Positions 19,705 to 44,931 of a stretch of DNA of 49,024 nt are shown here, in pieces. The notes beneath the pieces are model-generated. The model did not search any database. It was not told the DNA's origin and saw only the letters and a list, made by a program, of their open reading frames with translations. The DNA is from Nesterenkonia sp. E16_10. GTDB lineage: Bacteria; Actinomycetota; Actinomycetes; Actinomycetales; Micrococcaceae. Position numbers and translations under genes: made by a program. Each line of letters opens with the position of its first letter. The stretch's first letter is position 1. Location: positions 1-49,024 of the forward strand of contig NZ_JADPSA010000014.1 of the NCBI RefSeq assembly GCF_017347085.1, given 5' to 3'.

Positions 19705-21039
19705 ATGCTTGCACCTAAGAGGTCAAGGCCCCCTGCCATGACGATCGGCACGGGCCTCTCACTGGCCCTCCTCCTGTCCGCATGCTCCGGGGACTCCGAG
19801 AGTTCCGGTGGCGAAGAGTCCGATGGAGCCATTGAGGTGTGGGCTCACGCAGGCCAGGCGGCAGAGAGCGAGGCATTGCAGTCACTGGTGGATGAGTTCA
19901 ACTCGTCCCAGGAAGACGTGACGGCGGAGCTGACGCTCATCCCTGAAGCTGACTACACCAGCACCATTCAGTCGACCTCGGCGGAGGACCTGCCCGAGGT
20001 CATGGAAATGGATGCCCCGACCATGGCGTCGTTCGTCTATGACCGCAAGCTCATTCCGCTCGAGGACGTTGTCTCTGCCGACGCGCTCGACAACCGGATC
20101 GGAGGCGTCGAGGAGAGCGGCACATACAACGACGCTACCTACGCCGTGGGGATGTTCGACGTCGGGCTGGGTCTATGGGGTAACAAGACGTTGCTGGATG
20201 AGGCGGGTATCGAGGCGCCAACGACCGCAGACGAGGCGTGGACGGTCGACGAGTTCGACACTTACGTCGCGGAACTGGCGGAGGTCGCGCCCTCCGGCAA
20301 GGCCATCGATCTCGGAGAGGCCAATGGCTTCGCGGCGGAGTGGGGAACATTCACCACAACTCCGGACATCTGGTCAGCTGGAGGCACGCTCATGCTGGAC
20401 GGGGAGGCTGACGGGGTGCTCAACAGCCAGGAGAACGTCGATGCACTCGAACGCTGGGCCTCCTGGAAGGAGTTTGCCGATCCCAACACCAGCGGAACAG
20501 CCTTCCCAGACGGAGAGACCGCCCTGACCTGGACCGGCAACTGGATGTATCCCACCTTCAGCGAGGCGCTCGGGGAAGATCTTGTGCTCATGCCGCTGCC
20601 GGACTTCGGTCAGGGCACCAAAGCTGGGCACGGGTCCTGGCAGTGGGGGGCCACGCCCACTGCCGAGGGAAACACTGAGGCGGCGGGAGCATTCCTTGAT
20701 TTTCTGCTCTCTGACGACAGCATCAACGCAATGGTTGAGGCCAATGCTGCGGTCCCAGGTAGTACCTCGGCTCTGGAGCAGAGCGAGCTCTACGGCCCAG
20801 ACAAGCCGTTGGAGCTGTTCGCTGACAATCTCGCCTCGGCTTGTGGCTCAGAGGACGTCACCGAAGAGTGCATCGCAGTCGCGCGTCCGGTGACCCCGGG
20901 GTACCCAACTGTGACTAGCGCCTTCGGAAGCGCTCTCCTTGCGATCTGGGGAGGTGCGGACGTGCAGGACGAGCTCGACTCGGCCGCGCGCGCGATTGAT
21001 TCCGACTTCGCCGACAACGACGGCTATCAGAACGACTGA
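19705..21039 (+). CDS. Carbohydrate ABC transporter substrate-binding lipoprotein
   Basis: A 444-residue extracytoplasmic sugar-binding protein of family 1. Its signal peptide ends in the lipobox LLLSAC, giving a lipid-anchored cysteine, followed by a Ser/Gly/Glu-rich linker. The rest has the bilobal pattern (AEADY/TSTIQSTSAEDLPEVMEMD, GNWMYPTF, FPDGETALTWTG). ATG 19705 follows AAAGGA. It opens the operon; the amino-sugar enzymes downstream and the GntR regulator suggest GlcNAc, chitobiose or a related amino sugar as ligand. Confidence 0.92.
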   Translation: MLAPKRSRPPAMTIGTGLSLALLLSACSGDSESSGGEESDGAIEVWAHAGQAAESEALQSLVDEFNSSQEDVTAELTLIPEADYTSTIQSTSAEDLPEVMEMDAPTMASFVYDRKLIPLEDVVSADALDNRIGGVEESGTYNDATYAVGMFDVGLGLWGNKTLLDEAGIEAPTTADEAWTVDEFDTYVAELAEVAPSGKAIDLGEANGFAAEWGTFTTTPDIWSAGGTLMLDGEADGVLNSQENVDALERWASWKEFADPNTSGTAFPDGETALTWTGNWMYPTFSEALGEDLVLMPLPDFGQGTKAGHGSWQWGATPTAEGNTEAAGAFLDFLLSDDSINAMVEANAAVPGSTSALEQSELYGPDKPLELFADNLASACGSEDVTEECIAVARPVTPGYPTVTSAFGSALLAIWGGADVQDELDSAARAIDSDFADNDGYQND

Positions 21040-21046
21040 TCGACTC

Positions 21047-21076
21047 AGGAAGCGGGGCTCACGGGCCCCGCTTCCT
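21047..21076 (+). terminator. Intercistronic hairpin after the binding-protein gene
   Basis: AGGAAGCGGGGC pairs perfectly with GCCCCGCTTCCT (12 bp) around a 6-base loop, 7 bases after the stop codon and just before the permease SD. Without a T-run it is more likely an mRNA-stabilising or partial stop signal that keeps binding protein in excess over the permeases. Confidence 0.6.
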
Positions 21077-21094
21077 CAGTTCAAGGAGGGCGAC

Positions 21095-22051
21095 ATCGCC
21101 ACTACAACAGGGCTCAACCCCCCGCAGGCCCCGACTGTCAGGCCGCGAAAGATCAGAAGGGCCCAGTTCGCGGGTCCGCTCATGGCGGCTCCAGCCATCT
21201 CGCTCCTACTGCTATTCGTGGCCGTGCCGTTCCTGGCTTCGATCGGCTTCTCGCTGTACAACGTCCGGTTGGGGGACCCCCGAGACCCCTCCTTCATGGG
21301 ACTCACGCAATACGTCCGGATCCTGACAGATCCCGATGTCTCCGGACAATTCCTGGACGCACTGCTGCACAACTTAATCTTCGCCGCGGTCGTCGTACCG
21401 GTGCAGACGGCCCTAGCTCTGGCTCTGGCTCTGCTGGTCAAGAAGAACTTGCCCGGAATGGGAGTCTTCCGTTCGCTGTATTTCCTGCCCGTCGTCTTTC
21501 CCATCGCTCTGGTCGCGATCATCTGGCGTCTCATCCTGGCCCGAGGTGACCAAGGACTGCTCAACTCAGCCTTGGCCTTCTTCTCAGGAGGAGCCTTCGG
21601 GTCGCAGGACTGGCTGGGATCGGAACTCACGGCACTTGCGTCCGTCATCGTCCTCTCAATCTGGCAGGGCTGCGGGTTCCAGATGGTCATCCTGTTGGCA
21701 GCGCTGCAGCAGGTTCCGCCCGAGCTATACGAAGCAGCTGAACTCGACCGGGCCAACGGCTGGCAACGATTCGTCCACGTCACCCTGCCTGGGGTCAGGA
21801 CGACCCTGGTGTTCGTGGCGCTCTACACGACGATTCTGTCGCTCCGGGTATTCGACCAGATTTACGTCCTGGCCAAGTCCGGCGGAGGCCTCAACGAGGA
21901 CGCGACACGAACAGTCATGTACGAAGCCGTCACCGCGGCGTTCGACGAGAACAACATTGGGCGGGCCAGCGCCATATCGGTGGTCTTCTTCCTCATAGTC
22001 GTCGTCCTGTCCCTGATCCAGCGCCGCGTCACGACCGAGAAAGAGGGCTGA
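21095..22051 (+). CDS. Sugar ABC transporter permease 1
   Basis: A MalF/UgpA-type permease (318 residues from 21095) with six transmembrane helices and the EAA loop (EAAELDRANGWQRF) that contacts the ATPase. The start is uncertain: AAGGAGGG at 21083-21090 is followed at ideal distance by ATC, then GCC ACT ACA, where a typical gene would have ATG. The next in-frame ATG (21183) would remove the cytoplasmic N-terminus, and upstream starts lie inside the binding-protein gene. No ATPase gene is in this operon; a shared MsiK-type ATPase elsewhere is the usual solution in actinobacteria. Confidence 0.88.
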   Translation: MATTTGLNPPQAPTVRPRKIRRAQFAGPLMAAPAISLLLLFVAVPFLASIGFSLYNVRLGDPRDPSFMGLTQYVRILTDPDVSGQFLDALLHNLIFAAVVVPVQTALALALALLVKKNLPGMGVFRSLYFLPVVFPIALVAIIWRLILARGDQGLLNSALAFFSGGAFGSQDWLGSELTALASVIVLSIWQGCGFQMVILLAALQQVPPELYEAAELDRANGWQRFVHVTLPGVRTTLVFVALYTTILSLRVFDQIYVLAKSGGGLNEDATRTVMYEAVTAAFDENNIGRASAISVVFFLIVVVLSLIQRRVTTEKEG

Positions 22052-22052
22052 G

Positions 22053-22922
22053 ATGGCTCAGATGACCGCGTCCAACCCCAAGATCAGTCGGCGGGAGCTC
22101 AAATCCCGCATACCGCATTACGCGGTGCTGCTTGTTACCGGGGTGCTCTTCCTCGCCCCGGTCGCCTACATGGTCGCGGCCTCTCTTGCGCCGGCGAGTG
22201 ACACGCTGGCGGGGTTCACCGTCTTCGACGTGACCCAATGGGGACTGCACAACTACTCGGGGGTGGCCTCCAGCCTGTCCTCGGACAGCACTGGGCACCT
22301 CTGGCGCTTCTTCGCCGTCTCGTTTACCGTGACCGTCGCCGTCGTTGGACTTGGCCTCATCGTGAACTCTATGGCGGCCTATGCGCTGGCCCGGCTGTCA
22401 TGGCGTGGCCGCGCCGTCGCCCTCCTGGCGATTTTGCTGATCCTAATTGTGCCATTTGAGGCGGTCGCCGTGCCGATGTTCTACCTCTACAACGACGCAC
22501 GAAACACGCTGTGGATCCAGATCCTGCCGTTCATCGGAAACGCACTGTCCATCTTCCTCTTCTATTCATTCTTCACCGGAATCCCGCGCAGCATCGACGA
22601 AGCCGCTCGGGTTGATGGCGCCGGACCCTGGCGCATCTTCTGGCAGATTATCGCCCCGATGAGCAAGCCGGCGTACGCCTCCGTCGCGATCCTCACCTTT
22701 CTCACCCAGTGGGGCTCCTTCCTCTGGCCCGTGCTGATGATCTCGGATCCGAACCTGAGGCCCCTTCCGTTGCAGATCAGCGTCTTCGCCGGACAGCTTC
22801 CACCCGCCTGGGGGCAGGTTATGGCCTTCGGGGTCCTGCTCGTGCTCCCGGTCATCGTGGTGTTCCTGGTCTTTCAGCGGTGGTTCATCGAGGGTGTAGC
22901 GAGCTCAGCCGTCAAGGGCTGA
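22053..22922 (+). CDS. Sugar ABC transporter permease 2
   Basis: A 289-residue MalG/UgpE-type permease with six transmembrane helices and the EAA loop EAARVDGAGPWRIFWQIIAP. It starts one base after the stop of permease 1, so the two are coupled and form the membrane heterodimer of the importer. Confidence 0.92.
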   Translation: MAQMTASNPKISRRELKSRIPHYAVLLVTGVLFLAPVAYMVAASLAPASDTLAGFTVFDVTQWGLHNYSGVASSLSSDSTGHLWRFFAVSFTVTVAVVGLGLIVNSMAAYALARLSWRGRAVALLAILLILIVPFEAVAVPMFYLYNDARNTLWIQILPFIGNALSIFLFYSFFTGIPRSIDEAARVDGAGPWRIFWQIIAPMSKPAYASVAILTFLTQWGSFLWPVLMISDPNLRPLPLQISVFAGQLPPAWGQVMAFGVLLVLPVIVVFLVFQRWFIEGVASSAVKG

Positions 22923-22968
22923 AGCTCACCTCCCACTACGCACCGCTCACCATTAGAAGGGACAGACT

Positions 22969-23757
22969 GTGGAAGTTGTCATCCTGGCCGATCCGGCTGC
23001 GGTCGGATCCCACACCGCAGAACTCATCGCCCACCATGCCTCCGAGACACCAGATATGGTCCTCGGAGTCGCCACCGGTTCATCGCCGCTGGGTACCTAC
23101 CGCGAGCTGGCCCGGCTGCGTGCTCAGGGAGACGTCACGCTCGCCGGCGTGCGGATTTTCGCGCTCGACGAATACGTCGGCCTGCATGAACGACATCCGG
23201 CGAGCTACGCGCTCGTCATCGAACGTGAACTGACGACTCCGCTGGGGTTAGACCCGGCGAATGTGCACACTCCCGATGGAGGCGCTGTCGACATCCAACA
23301 AGCCTGCCTCGACTACGAGCACGCCCTGACCGAATCAGGGGGCGTGGACCTGCAGATTCTCGGTATCGGAACCAACGGGCACATCGGATTCAATGAACCG
23401 ACTTCCTCGCTGGCTTCGCGCACCCGAGTCAAAGCGCTCTCCCATCAGACACGCATGGATAACGCCAGATTCTTCGCGAAGGATGATGACGTGCCTACGC
23501 ACTGCATCACTCAAGGACTGGGCACCATCATGGAGGCCCGAGAGGTCGTGCTCGTGGCCCAGGGGCAGGCGAAGGCTGCAGCTGTTGCCGCCGCGATCGA
23601 GGGGCCAGTGAGCAGTATGTGCCCGGCATCGCTACTGCAGTTTCACCCCCGGGCGCGGATCGTGCTGGATGAGGCCGCCGCCGCCCAGCTGACGCTGATT
23701 GACTATCACCGGTTCGTCGCCGAAGCCAAGCACCATTTCGCTGGTGGGGCCCTATGA
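22969..23757 (+). CDS. nagB: Glucosamine-6-phosphate deaminase NagB
   Basis: A 262-residue NagB. It converts glucosamine-6-phosphate to fructose-6-phosphate and ammonia. Hallmarks are the phosphate loop ATGSSPLGTY at 35-44, the general base in DEYVG (D67), and the GIGTNGHIGFNEP segment with H138 and E143. The start is GTG 22969 behind AGAAGGGA. Its stop overlaps the next start (ATGA), so it is coupled to the glycoside hydrolase. Confidence 0.95.
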   Translation: MEVVILADPAAVGSHTAELIAHHASETPDMVLGVATGSSPLGTYRELARLRAQGDVTLAGVRIFALDEYVGLHERHPASYALVIERELTTPLGLDPANVHTPDGGAVDIQQACLDYEHALTESGGVDLQILGIGTNGHIGFNEPTSSLASRTRVKALSHQTRMDNARFFAKDDDVPTHCITQGLGTIMEAREVVLVAQGQAKAAAVAAAIEGPVSSMCPASLLQFHPRARIVLDEAAAAQLTLIDYHRFVAEAKHHFAGGAL

Positions 23758-24710
23758 CGTTCCGACTTCCAGATGCATGGGTGTGGGATAGCTGGCTCGC
23801 CGATGACGGAGAGAACTATCACCTGTTCTTCCTGCGCGCGAGCAGGGCGCTGCAGAATCCGGATGCCCGCCACCACCGAGCCTCGATCGGTCATGCGACG
23901 TCGGTGGACCTCCAGGACTGGACTCCCTTACCTGATGCCCTCACCGCCTCCGACGGGCCCACATGGGATGACCTCGCGACCTGGACAGGCTGCACAGTGC
24001 GTGGCCCGGACGGCACTTGGCACCTCTTTTACACCGGGGTCAGCCGTGAAGAGGAAGGGCTACGACAGCGGATCGGCTCCGCGGTCTCGGATGACCTTCT
24101 GACCTGGACGCGCTCAGAGATGCCTGCACTCGAGGCGGACGAACAGTGGTACGAGAAGCTGAACGAGGGAACTTGGCCCGACGAGGCATGGCGGGACCCC
24201 TTCGTCTTCTTCGACGAGGCGACAAATCTGTGGCAGATGTTGATCACCGCACGCGGTCGAACCGGTGACCCCGACCAGCGTGCCGTCGTCGGGCATGCGG
24301 TAAGTCCCGACCTCACGCGTTGGGAAACGCGCCCACCGCTGTCCGCCCCGGCCGGTTTCGGTGAGATGGAAGTGATCCAATCCCGTGAGGTCCATGGAGA
24401 GGCAGTACTGCTCTTCTCGTGTCTGCCGGAGAAGGCACCAGGGATCAGGTTCGACAGCAACAGCACCGGCACTTGGATTGCCCGCGGGGAGAGCCTCCTG
24501 GGGTCCTGGGACCTTCGTAGCAGCAGGAGCTTCTTCGTCCCCGGTGTCTATGCCGCGCAACTGTTCAGGAAGCGAGACGGCGAATGGGTCGTCTTCGGCT
24601 TCCAAAACAGCGTGGATGGACGCTTCGTAGGAGAGATCGCCAGCCCCGTCGCATTGAAGGACGTTCTGGAGGGAGCGACGCTCTTCCCAATATCGACCAT
24701 AACTGCGTGA
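23754..24710 (+). CDS. Five-bladed-propeller glycoside hydrolase (GH32/GH68/GH43-like)
   Basis: A 318-residue intracellular enzyme (no signal peptide) with the pattern of clans GH-J/GH-F: an N-terminal Asp in VWDSW (D12, candidate nucleophile), IGHATSVDLQDW blade repeats, W-R-D-P at 146-149 like the RDP motif of GH32, and E206 in GEMEVIQ where GH32 has its acid/base Glu. It is coupled to nagB by an ATGA overlap. Enzymes of this fold usually cleave fructosides or arabinosides, so its place in an amino-sugar operon is odd. The true substrate may be an imported amino-sugar glycoside. Confidence 0.75.
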   Translation: MTFRLPDAWVWDSWLADDGENYHLFFLRASRALQNPDARHHRASIGHATSVDLQDWTPLPDALTASDGPTWDDLATWTGCTVRGPDGTWHLFYTGVSREEEGLRQRIGSAVSDDLLTWTRSEMPALEADEQWYEKLNEGTWPDEAWRDPFVFFDEATNLWQMLITARGRTGDPDQRAVVGHAVSPDLTRWETRPPLSAPAGFGEMEVIQSREVHGEAVLLFSCLPEKAPGIRFDSNSTGTWIARGESLLGSWDLRSSRSFFVPGVYAAQLFRKRDGEWVVFGFQNSVDGRFVGEIASPVALKDVLEGATLFPISTITA

Positions 24711-24744
24711 CGTTTCACCACCCCTCAATAAAGGAGAACCCAAC

Positions 24745-25638
24745 ATGTTTCAACGACAGATAGCAGCCGCTTCGGTTGCCGCGCTTGTTGTCGGCGGTGC
24801 TGTGCTCGGTGCCGGCCCGGCCTTCGCGGGGCCAGGAAAGACCACAGAGGTGACAGCAATGTCCTTCAACATCCACTACGGCGCGGACGGCGCCAACGTT
24901 TTCGACATCGAACGCACAGCGTCCGTGATCGAGGACTCGGGTGCCGAGATCATCGGCCTGCAGGAGGTGGACAACCACTGGGGTGCGCGGAGCGACTTCC
25001 TCGACGAAGCGGAATGGCTCGCGGACCGGCTCGACATGCACGTGGTGTACGGAGCTAACCTGGATGAGCCACCGTTGCCCGGGGGCGTGGACAACCGCCA
25101 GTACGGCAACGCCATCCTGAGTGAATATCCGATCATCTCTTCAGAGAACCATCTGCTGACGAACATCGAGTACGAGGAGCGACCCACCGAGCAGCGGGGC
25201 CTGCTTGAAGCCATAGTGAATGTTCGTGGCAACCACGTGGCTTTCTACAGCACCCACCTGGACTTCCAGCGCGAAGAACAGCGCGCATTGCAGGTCCAAG
25301 AGATCGTAGACATCACCGGTGCTAGCAAGCGGCCGGCGGTTATTGTTGGTGACCTCAATGCGACCCCAGACGCTGAGGAACTGCAGCCGCTCTTCTCAGC
25401 ATTCACAGATACCTTCGCAGCTCTGGGACAGAACGAGGACTACACCTTCGGTCCCGACCTCGAGGGTCTTCCCGGGAGCGGCTCTGTGGAGAATCCCAGT
25501 CTGCGTATCGACTACATCCTCACCGCGCGGGGCGCGACCGCAACCTCGGCGAACGTCATCCACACCACAGCTTCGGATCATCTGCCTATCGTCGCAGAGC
25601 TCTCCATCACGAAGAGCCCCAACGGCAAAGTGAAGTAG
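24745..25638 (+). CDS. Secreted endonuclease/exonuclease/phosphatase family protein
   Basis: A 297-residue protein with a Sec signal peptide (cleavage after AFA near residue 28) and a complete EEP domain: FNIHYG, LQEVD, GNAILSEYPI, STHLD, GDLNATPD, RIDYIL and SDHLPIVAEL, which hold the metal ligands and catalytic His/Asp. Such enzymes cleave phosphodiesters in DNA, phospholipids or glycophospholipids. AAAGGAG precedes ATG 24745. It sits in the middle of the amino-sugar operon, which suggests it releases a substrate outside the cell that is linked to an amino sugar by a phosphodiester (inference). Confidence 0.88.
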   Translation: MFQRQIAAASVAALVVGGAVLGAGPAFAGPGKTTEVTAMSFNIHYGADGANVFDIERTASVIEDSGAEIIGLQEVDNHWGARSDFLDEAEWLADRLDMHVVYGANLDEPPLPGGVDNRQYGNAILSEYPIISSENHLLTNIEYEERPTEQRGLLEAIVNVRGNHVAFYSTHLDFQREEQRALQVQEIVDITGASKRPAVIVGDLNATPDAEELQPLFSAFTDTFAALGQNEDYTFGPDLEGLPGSGSVENPSLRIDYILTARGATATSANVIHTTASDHLPIVAELSITKSPNGKVK

Positions 25639-25667
25639 CGCAGGCAGATATGGAAGCAAGGCAGCGC

Positions 25668-26561
25668 ATGGAGTCGAATATCGTGCTTGCGATCGATATC
25701 GGTGGCACCACGGTCAAGGGCTCCGTCTTCGCCGACGGGTCAGAACTATCCCCCGAACTCGCTGCCCCAACCTTCGAAGGGTCTTTGGGCGCTTTCGACG
25801 CGGTCCTCGCGGTGGTCTCTGACCTCGCGAGGACCGCACATGCGCATGGCTATGAGCCCACCGCCATCGGGGTAGGCACTCCGGGACTGGTAGATGCGCC
25901 TTTCGGTCTGGTGCGCTACGCCGCAAACCTTAAGTGGACTGATTTTCCTTTGGCAAGTCGGCTAGAAGAACATTTCAGTCTCCCGACCACAATCGATCAT
26001 GACGCCCGAACTGCCGCTCGGGCAGAGATGGCTCTACGCCCAGCCTTACGGGACTTTGTATTTATCCCGATTGGTACCGGCATCTCCGCCGCCATCGTCA
26101 CCGCAGGTAGGACGGTGACTGGGGCACGCGGACAGGCAGGTGAACTGGGCCATGTTACTACCATCCCCGATGGTCGAGCGTGCTCATGCGGACGACTCGG
26201 GTGCCTGGAAACCTACGCCTCAGCCAGAGCCGTTCTGTCGGGATACGTCGAAGCTGGCGGCACTGCCAATAGCGCTGCGGACGTCGCAAGACTAGTGGGC
26301 AAAGATCCACTCGCCGACCAGGCTTGGTCCACCGCCGTCAATGCCCTCGCCACCGGGATCACCACACTGACCGCAATATTTGATCCAGCAGAGATCGTGA
26401 TAGGAGGAGGCCTGAGCGCCGCGGGCCCCGTCCTCTTGAACCCATTGCGCGACGAAGTAAGAGGTTTATTGGGTTGGCGCGATGCTCCTGCAATCAGTGC
26501 ATCCCGTGCCGGCCCTCGAGCAGGACTCCTCGGCGCCGCACTACTCGGCAACACCCCTTGA
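25668..26561 (+). CDS. ROK family sugar kinase
   Basis: A 297-residue ROK kinase. The ATP loop DIGGTTVKG is near residue 10, the catalytic Asp is in TIDHDAR, and the zinc motif GH-x9-CSCGRLGCLE is typical. With NagA and NagB in the operon it probably phosphorylates GlcNAc or a related amino sugar at O6. The start is uncertain: ATG 25668 (after CAAGG) or ATG 25650, six codons earlier. Confidence 0.92.
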   Translation: MESNIVLAIDIGGTTVKGSVFADGSELSPELAAPTFEGSLGAFDAVLAVVSDLARTAHAHGYEPTAIGVGTPGLVDAPFGLVRYAANLKWTDFPLASRLEEHFSLPTTIDHDARTAARAEMALRPALRDFVFIPIGTGISAAIVTAGRTVTGARGQAGELGHVTTIPDGRACSCGRLGCLETYASARAVLSGYVEAGGTANSAADVARLVGKDPLADQAWSTAVNALATGITTLTAIFDPAEIVIGGGLSAAGPVLLNPLRDEVRGLLGWRDAPAISASRAGPRAGLLGAALLGNTP

Positions 26562-26589
26562 TCCAGCTCCAGCCAGGAAGGTCACTACC

Positions 26590-27783
26590 ATCACACACCG
26601 CCAGGTAATCCATGGACGAATCCATACCGGACTCACCGAATATGCGGAGGGCGCGGTAGCCATCGAGGATGAACGGATCACCTACGCGGGGGCACGAGAC
26701 TATTTCAATCCGCAGGGATGGCCCACACCGAAGGTGTTGGATTCAGGAGAGATTTTAGTTCCGGGGTTCATTGACACCCATTGTCACGGTGCCTTCGGCG
26801 CGGACTTTTCCACTTCTGCTGAAGAACCGGTGCGGCAGGCACTGGCAGAACTCCATGAAATCGGAACGACCACCGTGATGGCCAGCCTCGTTACGGCCTC
26901 AAGCGACGACATGCTGCGCGCTGTTGCACTCTTTGGTGGGCTTACGACTGATGGCTCCGTGGCTGGCATCCATCTTGAAGGCCCATTCCTCTCTCACGCA
27001 CGCTGCGGCGCTCAAGATCCGCGTTGGCTGGTGCTTCCCGACCTCGATCTCACGGGGCGGCTGATACAAGCTTCCGGGAGAACAATTCGCACCATGACCT
27101 ACGCCCCTGAGCTCGAAGGGGCAACGACACTGGTTGACTACCTGACAAGCCACGGTGTGGTGCCCTCCATCGGTCACACAGACGCCGACGCGTTCACCAC
27201 ACAGGCCTCTCTGGCCTACGCACTGCGAAGAATGTCCGCCGTCAGCGACGGCGCAGCGGTACCCACTGTCACGCACCTGTTCAACGGCATGCCTACCATC
27301 CACCACCGTTCACCTGGCCCTGCAATGGCCTGTCTCCGCGCGGCGGCAAAGGGCGAGGCGGTCATTGAACTGATCGCAGACACTTTGCACCTGGACCCGT
27401 ACACGGTGGGATCAATCTTCGAGCTAGTAGGCGCGAACAACATCATGCTGGTCACGGATTCCATGGCGGCTGCGGGCCTCGACGACGGGACCTACCAATT
27501 AGGGCCTGCGACCGTGCATGTCAACGATGCAGCCGCCACACTCGGCTCATCTAGTGCAATCGCCGGTGGGACTGCTTTCATGCGAGACATTTTCCGGAAC
27601 ACCGTCCAAGCGGGAGTTCCTTTCGATCAAGCGATCCGCTCCGCAACAGTCGTACCTGCCCGCACACACGGGCTGAGCGATCAAGTTGGCAGCCTGGCAG
27701 TAGGACTGAACGCAGATGCCGTGGTTCTCGACAAAGACCTTCACGTTGCAGAGGTCCTTCGACGAGGAACCTGGCTCGCATAA
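26590..27783 (+). CDS. nagA: N-acetylglucosamine-6-phosphate deacetylase NagA
   Basis: A 397-residue NagA-type amidohydrolase (from 26590), converting GlcNAc-6-phosphate to glucosamine-6-phosphate and acetate. Metal and catalytic residues are visible: DTHCHG (H64, H66), E130 in LEGPF, H196 in SIGHTDA, H229 in THLFNGM and D290 in VTDSMAA. The reading frame is open to 26482, inside the ROK gene, but AGGAAGG at 26575-26581 is followed at 8 bases by ATC, then ACA CAC CGC, exactly at the family N-terminus. Possible upstream GTG starts at 26497 and 26506 would overlap the ROK gene by more than 50 bases. Confidence 0.93.
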   Translation: MTHRQVIHGRIHTGLTEYAEGAVAIEDERITYAGARDYFNPQGWPTPKVLDSGEILVPGFIDTHCHGAFGADFSTSAEEPVRQALAELHEIGTTTVMASLVTASSDDMLRAVALFGGLTTDGSVAGIHLEGPFLSHARCGAQDPRWLVLPDLDLTGRLIQASGRTIRTMTYAPELEGATTLVDYLTSHGVVPSIGHTDADAFTTQASLAYALRRMSAVSDGAAVPTVTHLFNGMPTIHHRSPGPAMACLRAAAKGEAVIELIADTLHLDPYTVGSIFELVGANNIMLVTDSMAAAGLDDGTYQLGPATVHVNDAAATLGSSSAIAGGTAFMRDIFRNTVQAGVPFDQAIRSATVVPARTHGLSDQVGSLAVGLNADAVVLDKDLHVAEVLRRGTWLA

Positions 27784-42279: not shown

Positions 42280-43326
42280 ATGCGCAGAACCTCCCTTGCG
42301 GTCACTCTGGGCGCGATCGTCGCGCTGACCGCGACCTCCTGTGGCGACACCACCGAGCCGGCCTCCGAGGGTGACGAGACCTCCGCCGAGCAGGAGAGCC
42401 TGGTGCTCTACTCGGGGCGCAACGAGGAGCTGATCCAGCCGCTGATCGATACCTTCTCCGAGGAGACCGGCATCGAGGTCGAGGTCCGCTACGGCGACAC
42501 CGCCGAGCTGGCCGCGCAGCTGCTGGAAGAGGGTGACGGGTCCCCGGCTGATGTCTTCTTGGCTCAGGACGCGGGCGCCCTCGGCGCCGTGGCGGAGGAG
42601 GGTCTGTTCGATGAGCTCGACGCCGAGCTGCTCGACCAGGTCCCCGAGGCCTACCGTGATGCCGAGGATCAGTGGGTGGGCCTCTCCGGACGGGTCCGCA
42701 CCCTGATCTACAACACCGACACCGTCGATGAGGCCGACCTGCCCGCGAGCGTGGATGAGCTGACCGGGTCGGAGTACACCGGTCGCGTCGGCGTGGCCCC
42801 CACCAACGCGTCCTTCCAGTCCTTCGTGACCGCCCACCGCGAGATCGAGGGCGAGGAGGCGACCCAGACCTTCCTCGATGACCTCGCCGCGAATGATCCG
42901 CAGATCCGCGAGGGCAACGGCGAGATCGTCACCGATGTCGCCGACGGGGTCATCGACATGGGCCTGGTGAACCACTACTACCTCTACGGCCGCGCCAAGG
43001 AGCTCGGCGAGGATCCCGCCGAGCTCAACGTCGCGAACCACCTCTTCAGCGACGGCGACGTCGGATCGCTGGTCAACGTGGCTGGAGTCGGCGTGCTGAA
43101 CTCCGAGAACCCGGCCGCAGCCTCGCTGACCGAGTTCATGCTCAGCAACGAGGGCCAGACCTACTTCGCCGAAGAGACCGCGGAATACCCGATGATCGAA
43201 GGCGTGGAGGGACCCGAGGGCATGCCGAGCCTCGAGGAGCTCGACGCCCCCGATATCGACCTCAACCAGCTCGATGACCTGGAGACCTCCGTGGAGATGA
43301 TCGTCGAATCGGGTCTGGTGGGCTGA
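42280..43326 (+). CDS. Iron(III) ABC transporter substrate-binding lipoprotein
   Basis: A 348-residue periplasmic-type ferric-binding protein of the FbpA/FutA family. The signal peptide ends in lipobox TATSC, followed by an acidic linker. Hallmarks are VLYSGRNEELIQPLIDTF near the N-terminus and the NHYYLYG tyrosine cluster that binds iron. GAAGGA lies upstream of ATG 42280. It is the first gene of an iron importer and is preceded by a DtxR/IdeR-like box. Confidence 0.92.
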   Translation: MRRTSLAVTLGAIVALTATSCGDTTEPASEGDETSAEQESLVLYSGRNEELIQPLIDTFSEETGIEVEVRYGDTAELAAQLLEEGDGSPADVFLAQDAGALGAVAEEGLFDELDAELLDQVPEAYRDAEDQWVGLSGRVRTLIYNTDTVDEADLPASVDELTGSEYTGRVGVAPTNASFQSFVTAHREIEGEEATQTFLDDLAANDPQIREGNGEIVTDVADGVIDMGLVNHYYLYGRAKELGEDPAELNVANHLFSDGDVGSLVNVAGVGVLNSENPAAASLTEFMLSNEGQTYFAEETAEYPMIEGVEGPEGMPSLEELDAPDIDLNQLDDLETSVEMIVESGLVG

Positions 43327-43329
43327 CCC

Positions 43330-44927
43330 ATCACCGCCCCGGCTCACGCCCCAACGCGCACCGCCGCCCGTTCCCGCTCCGCCGGGAACGGGCGTGTGGC
43401 GGTGCCGCTGTGGCTGCGTGCCGCCGCGGTCATCGCCACGCTGGTCGCGATGCTGCCGCTGTTCTACCTGATCATCCGGCTGGCCCAGTTCCCGCTCCCA
43501 GACTTCCTGGACACGGTGTTCAGTGCGCGCAGCGCCCGGCTGGCCCTGACCTCACTGACCCTGACCGGCACGGTCACCGCGCTGTGCCTGATCCTCGGCG
43601 TGGGACTCGCCTTTTTGGTCACCCGCACCCAGCTCCCGGGACGGCTGATCCTCGGCGTCGCCGCCGCGCTGCCCCTGGCGATCCCAAGCTACGTCGCGGC
43701 CTTCGGCTGGCAGTCGATGAACGCCCTGATCAACCCGGGCACCAGCTTCGAAGGGTTCTTCGCCGCGGCGATCGTGATCACCTCGGTGACCTACCCCTAC
43801 ATCTACCTGCCGGTGGTCGCCGCGCTGGTCTCGGTGGACCCCGCCCAGGAGGAGGCCGCCCGAGCGCTGGGCCGCGGACCGGTGGACACCTTCTTCAGCG
43901 TCACCGTCCGCCAGACCGCCCCCGCGATCACCGCGGGCACCCTGCTGTGCGCCATCTACGTCATCGCCGACTTCGGGGCGGTCTCGATCCTGCGCGTGGA
44001 CACCTTCACCCGCGCCGTGTTCACCAGCTTCTCGATGGGCTTCGACCGGCTCGGCGGGGTGGCGCTGTCCTCGGTGCTGCTGGTCTTCACCCTGTGCCTG
44101 CTGATCCTGGAAGGACGGGTCCGGCGCACCGGCACCCGCTACTCCACCATGTCCGGTGAAGGGCGCGCCCGCCCGGCCCGTTTCTCGATGGGGCGCTTCA
44201 CGCTGCCGATCCTGGCCCTGGCCTGGGCCCCGGTGCTCATCGCCCTGGCGGTCCCGCTCTCGGCCCTGCTGGTCTGGAGCCTGCGCGGCGTCTCCCGGCC
44301 CGGCTCCCTGGGCGAGATCGGCTCGGCACTGCTGAACTCGCTCTGGGCCGCCGGACTCGCGGCGCTGGCCACCACGGCGATCGCGATCCCGCTCGCGCTG
44401 TGGCTCGCGCGCCGTCCCTCGCGGCTCGCCCGGCTGCTGGAACGTACCGCCTACCTGGCGCACTCGCTGCCCGGCGTGGTGATCGGGCTCTCGGTGGTGA
44501 TGCTCGGGATCGCGGTGCTGCCGGCGCTGTATCAGACCATGTGGATGCTGACCCTGGCCTACTGCGCGCTGATGCTGCCGCTCGCCCTGGGCCCGGTGCT
44601 CGCCTCCGCACTCTCGGCGCCCCCAGAGCTCGAGGAGGCTGCGCAGTCACTGGGCAGCAGCCCGGGTGCGGGCTACCTGCGCGTGACGCTGCCGCTGATG
44701 CTGCCCGGGATCCTCTCGGGTGCGCTGCTGGTGCTGCTGACCACGATCAAGGAGCTCCCGGCCACGCTGATGCTGCGCCCCACCGGCTTCGACACCCTGG
44801 CCACCCGGCTGTGGACCTACACCGGCGGCGAGTCCTATGCGGCCGCCGCGCCCTTCGCCGCCATGCTGGTGCTCGTCGCCGCGGTCCCGGCCTGGATGAT
44901 GATTTCACGACTGCTCAAGGAGGTTCG

Positions 44928-44931
<4 letters not shown>
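43330..44931 (+). CDS. Iron(III) ABC transporter permease (fused, FbpB-like)
   Basis: A permease of about 530 residues with two homologous halves (about 12 helices) and two EAA loops (EEAARALGRGPVDTFF and EEAAQSLGSSPGAGYL). The first clear canonical start is GTG 43396, but GGTGGG at 43317-43322 is followed at 7 bases by ATC (43330), then ACC GCC CCG, giving a normal cytoplasmic N-terminus of TAPAHAPTRTAARS type. The ATC lies 3 bases after the binding-protein stop. It overlaps the ATPase gene (ATGA). Confidence 0.9.

Follow-up and report, generated by a model that had tools for sequence, protein, structure and literature searches.

A probable ATC start codon in the first permease gene of a sugar transporter

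Translation of permease 1, the first permease gene of a sugar transporter operon in Nesterenkonia sp. E16_10, very probably initiates at the AUC codon at position 21095, as judged from comparison across related sequences. The gene lies in a stretch of 49,024 nucleotides that was analysed as a whole (the window), and it carries a PF00528 (BPD_transp_1) domain 3' of a solute-binding protein gene, which identifies it as a sugar ABC inner-membrane permease (Table 1). The layout that a preliminary description had given was confirmed by direct reading: AAGGAGGG (21083-21090) is followed by CGAC (21091-21094) and then by ATC GCC ACT ACA from 21095, in a frame that ends at 22051. The in-frame canonical codons 5' of the ATC (TTG 20939, GTG 20954 and TTG 20996) all lie inside the binding-protein gene, as it had also claimed, and the next in-frame ATG exists, although at 21182 and thus one base from the position of 21183 assigned to it there. 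The central proposal, that AUC serves as the start, is backed by cross-species conservation, Shine-Dalgarno spacing and coding pattern.

Table 1. Coordinates of the genes and signals discussed; positions refer to the window unless a contig is named.
Feature	Position	Strand	Basis
Solute-binding protein gene of the sugar transporter (stop codon 21037-21039)	19705..21039	+	PF13416, E 1.2e-17
Strong hairpin without a U-run, between the binding-protein and permease genes	21042..21081	+	Folding
Shine-Dalgarno sequence AAGGAGGG	21083..21090	+	Read directly
ATC, proposed start codon of permease 1	21095..21097	+	Conserved in seven distinct sequences
Permease 1 coding sequence, 318 aa	21095..22051	+	PF00528, E 9.5e-16
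Internal in-frame ATG of permease 1; start in the public annotation (289 aa)	21182..21184	+	
Permease 2, ATG start	22053..22922	+	PF00528, E 1.8e-15
Amidohydrolase gene; ATC start at 26590 not upheld	26590..27783	+	PF01979
Binding-protein gene stop codon TGA, in frame with the downstream permease	43324..43326	+	
Two-domain iron(III)-type permease, putative ATC start	43330..44931	+	PF00528, two stretches; ATC conserved
lysA behind argS	L086:1-1056, source-genome contig C19	-	ATC start in nine-species clade
infC	L312, source-genome contig C24:92865-93116	-	IF3 domain; ATC start

ATC occupies the permease 1 start in the window, in L004 (97% identity) and in L008, L009, L010, L011, L016 and L062. 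L011 and L062 appear identical in the stretch shown and were counted once, giving seven distinct sequences that span Nesterenkonia, Arthrobacter, Mycetocola and Micrococcaceae; L006, L007, L066, L013, L014 and L017-L044 were left out of this reading. In all seven, GGAG ends 6 nt 5' of the ATC. While a single ATC behind a Shine-Dalgarno sequence proves nothing, conservation across species makes the permease 1 ATC more than chance. Since ATC is by far the commonest isoleucine codon (2461 of the 2546 Ile codons counted inside genes), a fixed ATC is nonetheless weak evidence beyond a fixed residue. The preliminary description had taken an ATG at this codon in relatives as a sign of mutation or sequence error. 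Some relatives do carry ATG, namely L012 and L015 (81-83% identity), in which it aligns about one codon further in than the ATC, and the more distant L005, L063, L064, L065, L067 and L068. Yet ATC is common to seven distinct sequences, which excludes a sequencing error or a recent mutation as its source.

The permease 1 codons behind the ATC evolve like protein. Between codon 2 and the internal Met, pN/pS is 0.38 across the seven sequences, and differences at codon positions 1, 2 and 3 number 180, 133 and 320 in 616 codon comparisons. The selection signal is weaker in this N-terminus than in the following 100 codons, where pN/pS is 0.19, which counts against the ATC start.

The public annotation places the start at the internal ATG instead, and 289-aa entries exist for several ATC-bearing species (L004, L008 and L009), with the internal Met present in all seven sequences. 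However, no Shine-Dalgarno sequence precedes this ATG in any of the seven, the codons 5' of it show the protein-like evolution described above, and in close and distant relatives alike an ATG is followed by an N-terminus of about the same length. Moreover, ATG-bearing L012 is also entered with 289 aa (P0025) despite having an ATG further 5', which shows that entry lengths are no guide to where translation really starts; for L015 and Arthrobacter koreensis the public entries give 319 aa. We regard initiation at the internal ATG as unlikely. Gene callers in wide use typically admit no start codons other than ATG, GTG and TTG.

A start further upstream, at a TTG or GTG within the binding-protein gene, could draw on the in-frame codons of this kind that are present there in the window and in L004. 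No canonical codon lies between the upstream in-frame stop and the ATC in L009, L010, L011 or L016, however, and the sole one in L008 is a GTG at -14, inside the intergenic hairpin. Such a start would also bring the hairpin into the permease 1 coding region, and we consider it highly improbable.

The hairpin itself is strong: positions 21037-21082 fold at -30.4 kcal/mol (z -6.1), and a hairpin is found at the same place in all nine folded sequences, at -25.0 to -54.7 kcal/mol. Two of these nine are ATG-starting permease copies and seven are ATC-starting, so the hairpin does not track ATC. A small predicted hairpin over part of the permease 1 start site was no stronger than chance.

The sugar transporter cluster (19705-27783) is patchy or rare in the genus, with a close permease 1 match in one of 29 other same-genus genomes, and copies of permease 1 with 81-87% identity are found in Arthrobacter, an uncultured Micrococcaceae bacterium and Mycetocola. 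Such rarity within the genus, set against such similarity outside it, suggests that the cluster may have moved horizontally.

Initiator tRNA and the infC start

A single initiator-type tRNA, with anticodon CAU, was found among 46 tRNA places in the source genome; we take it to be an initiator from features that we associate with this class. Since the sole initiator tRNA found reads CAU, AUC would be read with a third-base mismatch. A special initiator tRNA that reads AUC as an efficient start would fit the recurrence of ATC starts in several genes, but no GAU initiator was found among the 46 tRNA places of this draft (rated 98.75% complete), in which the tRNA with anticodon GAU is a regular isoleucine tRNA, and we give this explanation practically no weight.

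The gene for IF3, infC, starts with ATC AGC behind AGGAG in all 28 same-genus genomes read, out of 30 searched; the count excludes G025, where the gene lies at a contig edge, and G017, where it is split. Among 30 genomes drawn from the class, the motif used missed 7 loci, and the infC start was ATC in 22 and ATT in 1 of the 23 readable genomes, the source genome included. An AUU start is the classic infC situation in E. coli, in work cited in excerpts of PMC9845219. Because infC starts with AUC here and IF3 is called essential, on B. subtilis, in excerpts of PMC3997798, AUC initiation presumably works in these cells.

In the partial text of a study in Mycobacterium smegmatis, ATC with a Shine-Dalgarno sequence gave low but above-background initiation, while ATT was robust (PMC4633059), and in a reconstituted system weak third-base pairs were excluded by IF3, according to excerpts of PMC10158994 in which AUC/CAU does not figure. 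On these partially available results, AUC should be a weak, IF3-restrained start. Excerpts of two other papers mention rare AUC, AUU and AUA starts (PMC9094748) and a disrupted gene with an ATG-to-ATC start change (PMC10210955). The sensitivity to IF3 and the lowered permease 1 output that the preliminary description expected would thus rest on published work in other bacteria.

Probable ATC starts of an iron(III) permease and of lysA

The preliminary description had assigned the same pattern to two more genes of the window, at 43330 and 26590, with Ala or Thr as the second codon; codon 2 is Thr at both. The first of these assignments held, whereas the second did not. At 43330, the gene belongs to a family that several database sources name iron(III) permease, and an in-frame TGA one codon 5' leaves no possible earlier start. 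The site differs from the permease 1 pattern in that it has no strong Shine-Dalgarno sequence; GGTCTGGTGGGCTGACCC precedes the ATC. Among 15 same-genus loci, ATC stands behind the binding-protein stop in 12 (L047-L054, L056-L058 and L061), with Thr or Ser, encoded by several codons, as the second residue, and the exceptions include ATG in L055 and GTG in L060. In two of two other-genus loci, L244 and L245 (58 and 57% identity), the junction reads ATC ACA GCA. On these comparisons, initiation at ATC 43330 is supported at least as strongly as that of permease 1. The closest database entry (96%) has 511 aa, the length counted from GTG 43396, and named Nesterenkonia entries range from 505 to 566 aa.

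Two further observations concern this junction. L059 (G009) has the same string, but its binding-protein frame runs on into the permease through an apparent one-base indel, which looks like either a draft error or a real change. In ten loci from three further genera (L246-L255), a CTG overlaps the binding-protein TGA, and neither ATC nor a canonical codon is present at the junction; this CTG may be coincidence, since CTGA arises wherever the codon in front of TGA has C as its last base.

At 26590, the ATC was shared by none of the 19 relatives read, and the same-genus locus L046 (G022) has an ATG two codons further 5'. The in-frame canonical codons 5' of 26590 in the window (ATG 26482, GTG 26497 and GTG 26506) are all inside a ROK gene.

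Outside the window, lysA was matched in 29 of 30 same-genus genomes searched, and the argS-lysA junction was read in 28 (G017, a partial match, was left out). Nine genomes have the argS TGA, two variable codons, ATC and then a Thr codon (ACG, ACC, ACA or ACT) as the lysA start. In the remaining 19 the start is canonical. It is ATG in 16 genomes, with an overlap of the argS stop in three of them; in the other 3 a GTG comes first, closely followed by an ATG in two. Seven of the nine ATC genomes lack any canonical codon before the conserved HPLAP motif, while in G012 and G021 a GTG not shared by the rest of the clade occurs 29 and 25 codons, respectively, after the argS stop. The nine form one clade (support 99/99), with one change on the tree. 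Altered IF3 was rejected as the cause: clade-specific substitutions and an insertion in the C-terminal part of IF3 were found, with no tie to start choice.

ATC starts are gene-specific

Start-codon enrichment behind Shine-Dalgarno sites was measured in 593 gene calls from 780 kb of the source genome (24%, window included) and in 315 gene calls from 400 kb of the relative genome G022. ATG, GTG and TTG were enriched in the sampled gene calls. ATC was not enriched in the source genome at the middle threshold (5 of 282 start-zone ATCs versus 9.7 expected), and in G022 the count at this threshold was 7 of 184 versus 4.6 expected. Genome-wide use of ATC starts was rejected on this lack of enrichment in the sampled parts of the two genomes. 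The non-start codons AGT and GTT showed small excesses behind Shine-Dalgarno sites in the source genome.

AUC as a rule for permeases was rejected as well. We surveyed by eye 30 of the 57 PF00528 matches in the source genome, over at most 130 codons 5' of the domain, and permease 1 alone was without a canonical start among these 30 loci, which do not include the iron(III) permease. L257 and L266 had been considered as further non-canonical permease starts, and a GTG and an ATG were found there.

When orthologs of the source genome and G022 were compared, in 47 of 242 comparable pairs the first canonical codon of both genomes was preceded by at least 8 aligned codons, and the 30 of these with at least 50% identity in that stretch were inspected by eye. 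Three resemble genuine N-termini that lack a canonical start, those of permease 1, of lysA and of a gene immediately 3' of a WhiB-like gene. Differences at the three codon positions are 3, 2 and 4 over 49 codons for permease 1, spacer included, a pattern that is not telling alone; they are 16, 16 and 26 for lysA, and 0, 0 and 5 over the first 20 codons for the gene behind the WhiB-like gene, where no canonical start is present. This last gene (L072:18285-18410, + strand) begins CTG ATC AAC, with the CTG overlapping the WhiB stop. A short case, A84/B362, has differences of 1, 1 and 6 over 9 codons. Candidate non-canonical N-termini amount to about 1% of ortholog pairs, a tentative figure from a partial sample.

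A conserved AUY start codon was found in permease 1, the permease at 43330, the lysA clade and infC, with a Shine-Dalgarno sequence at normal spacing in permease 1 (7 of 7) and infC but not clearly at 43330. Judged from these comparisons, ATC starts are not general here but gene-specific and recurrent, with permease 1, the iron(III) permease, lysA and infC as the putative set. Among the matches listed in a search of titles and abstracts of the open-licence literature, none dealt with AUC start codons that are conserved in lysA or in permeases of bacteria.

Discussion

In the mechanism that we propose, the Shine-Dalgarno sequence AAGGAGGG would place initiation at AUC 21095, and the ordinary CAU initiator tRNA would read this codon by pairing with A and U, with a mismatch at the third base. 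Since this pairing is weak, permease 1 would be initiated inefficiently and, as with infC, presumably under restraint by IF3. In combination with the intergenic hairpin, the weak start could hold the amount of membrane permease below that of the binding protein. Two further genes of the same sort would be lysA of one clade and the iron(III) permease at 43330.

Sugar ABC operons are expected to make more binding protein than permease. Those with a hairpin between the binding-protein and permease genes share gene order and intergenic hairpin with the operon described here, whereas their permease starts with ATG or GTG rather than AUC. Like infC, with its AUU or AUC start and autocontrol by IF3, permease 1 combines a conserved AUY codon with a Shine-Dalgarno sequence and a CAU initiator tRNA. 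In contrast, infC encodes IF3 and so closes a feedback loop, which permease 1 and lysA do not, and IF3 control of these two genes is putative. The M. smegmatis reporters resemble permease 1 in that ATC with a Shine-Dalgarno sequence initiates above background, although in the excerpts of that study the ATC served as a presumed negative control in a reporter, whereas the permease 1 ATC is a conserved natural start (PMC4633059).

A regulatory role of the permease 1 AUC start is a tentative proposal, to which we give somewhat less than an even chance. Drift is a serious rival: AUC could be the true start yet serve no regulation, having arisen by drift as a weak but tolerated codon and been passed on by descent, which we hold to be nearly an even prospect. 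In favour of drift, the ATC of lysA is consistent with one origin within a single clade, the relatives include permease 1 copies with ATG as well as with ATC, and the hairpin is not tied to the ATC copies. Against drift, the iron(III) permease keeps its ATC between sequences that are 57-58% identical, even though one base change would restore ATG. A broader proposal, which we consider improbable, is that a limited set of genes with an AUC start is maintained in actinomycetes (infC, some ABC permeases and, in one clade, lysA) and that their translation would rise together when IF3 is scarce, such that the IF3 level, set by the AUC of infC, would tune nutrient uptake and lysine synthesis, and that gene callers hid this set by shortening its proteins.

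The lysA clade and its ATG-bearing sister species form natural pairs. Should AUC starts be maintained in transporter genes and lysA, the deposited proteins would be without their true N-terminus, and the identity of the start codon may be a selected dial for subunit ratios.
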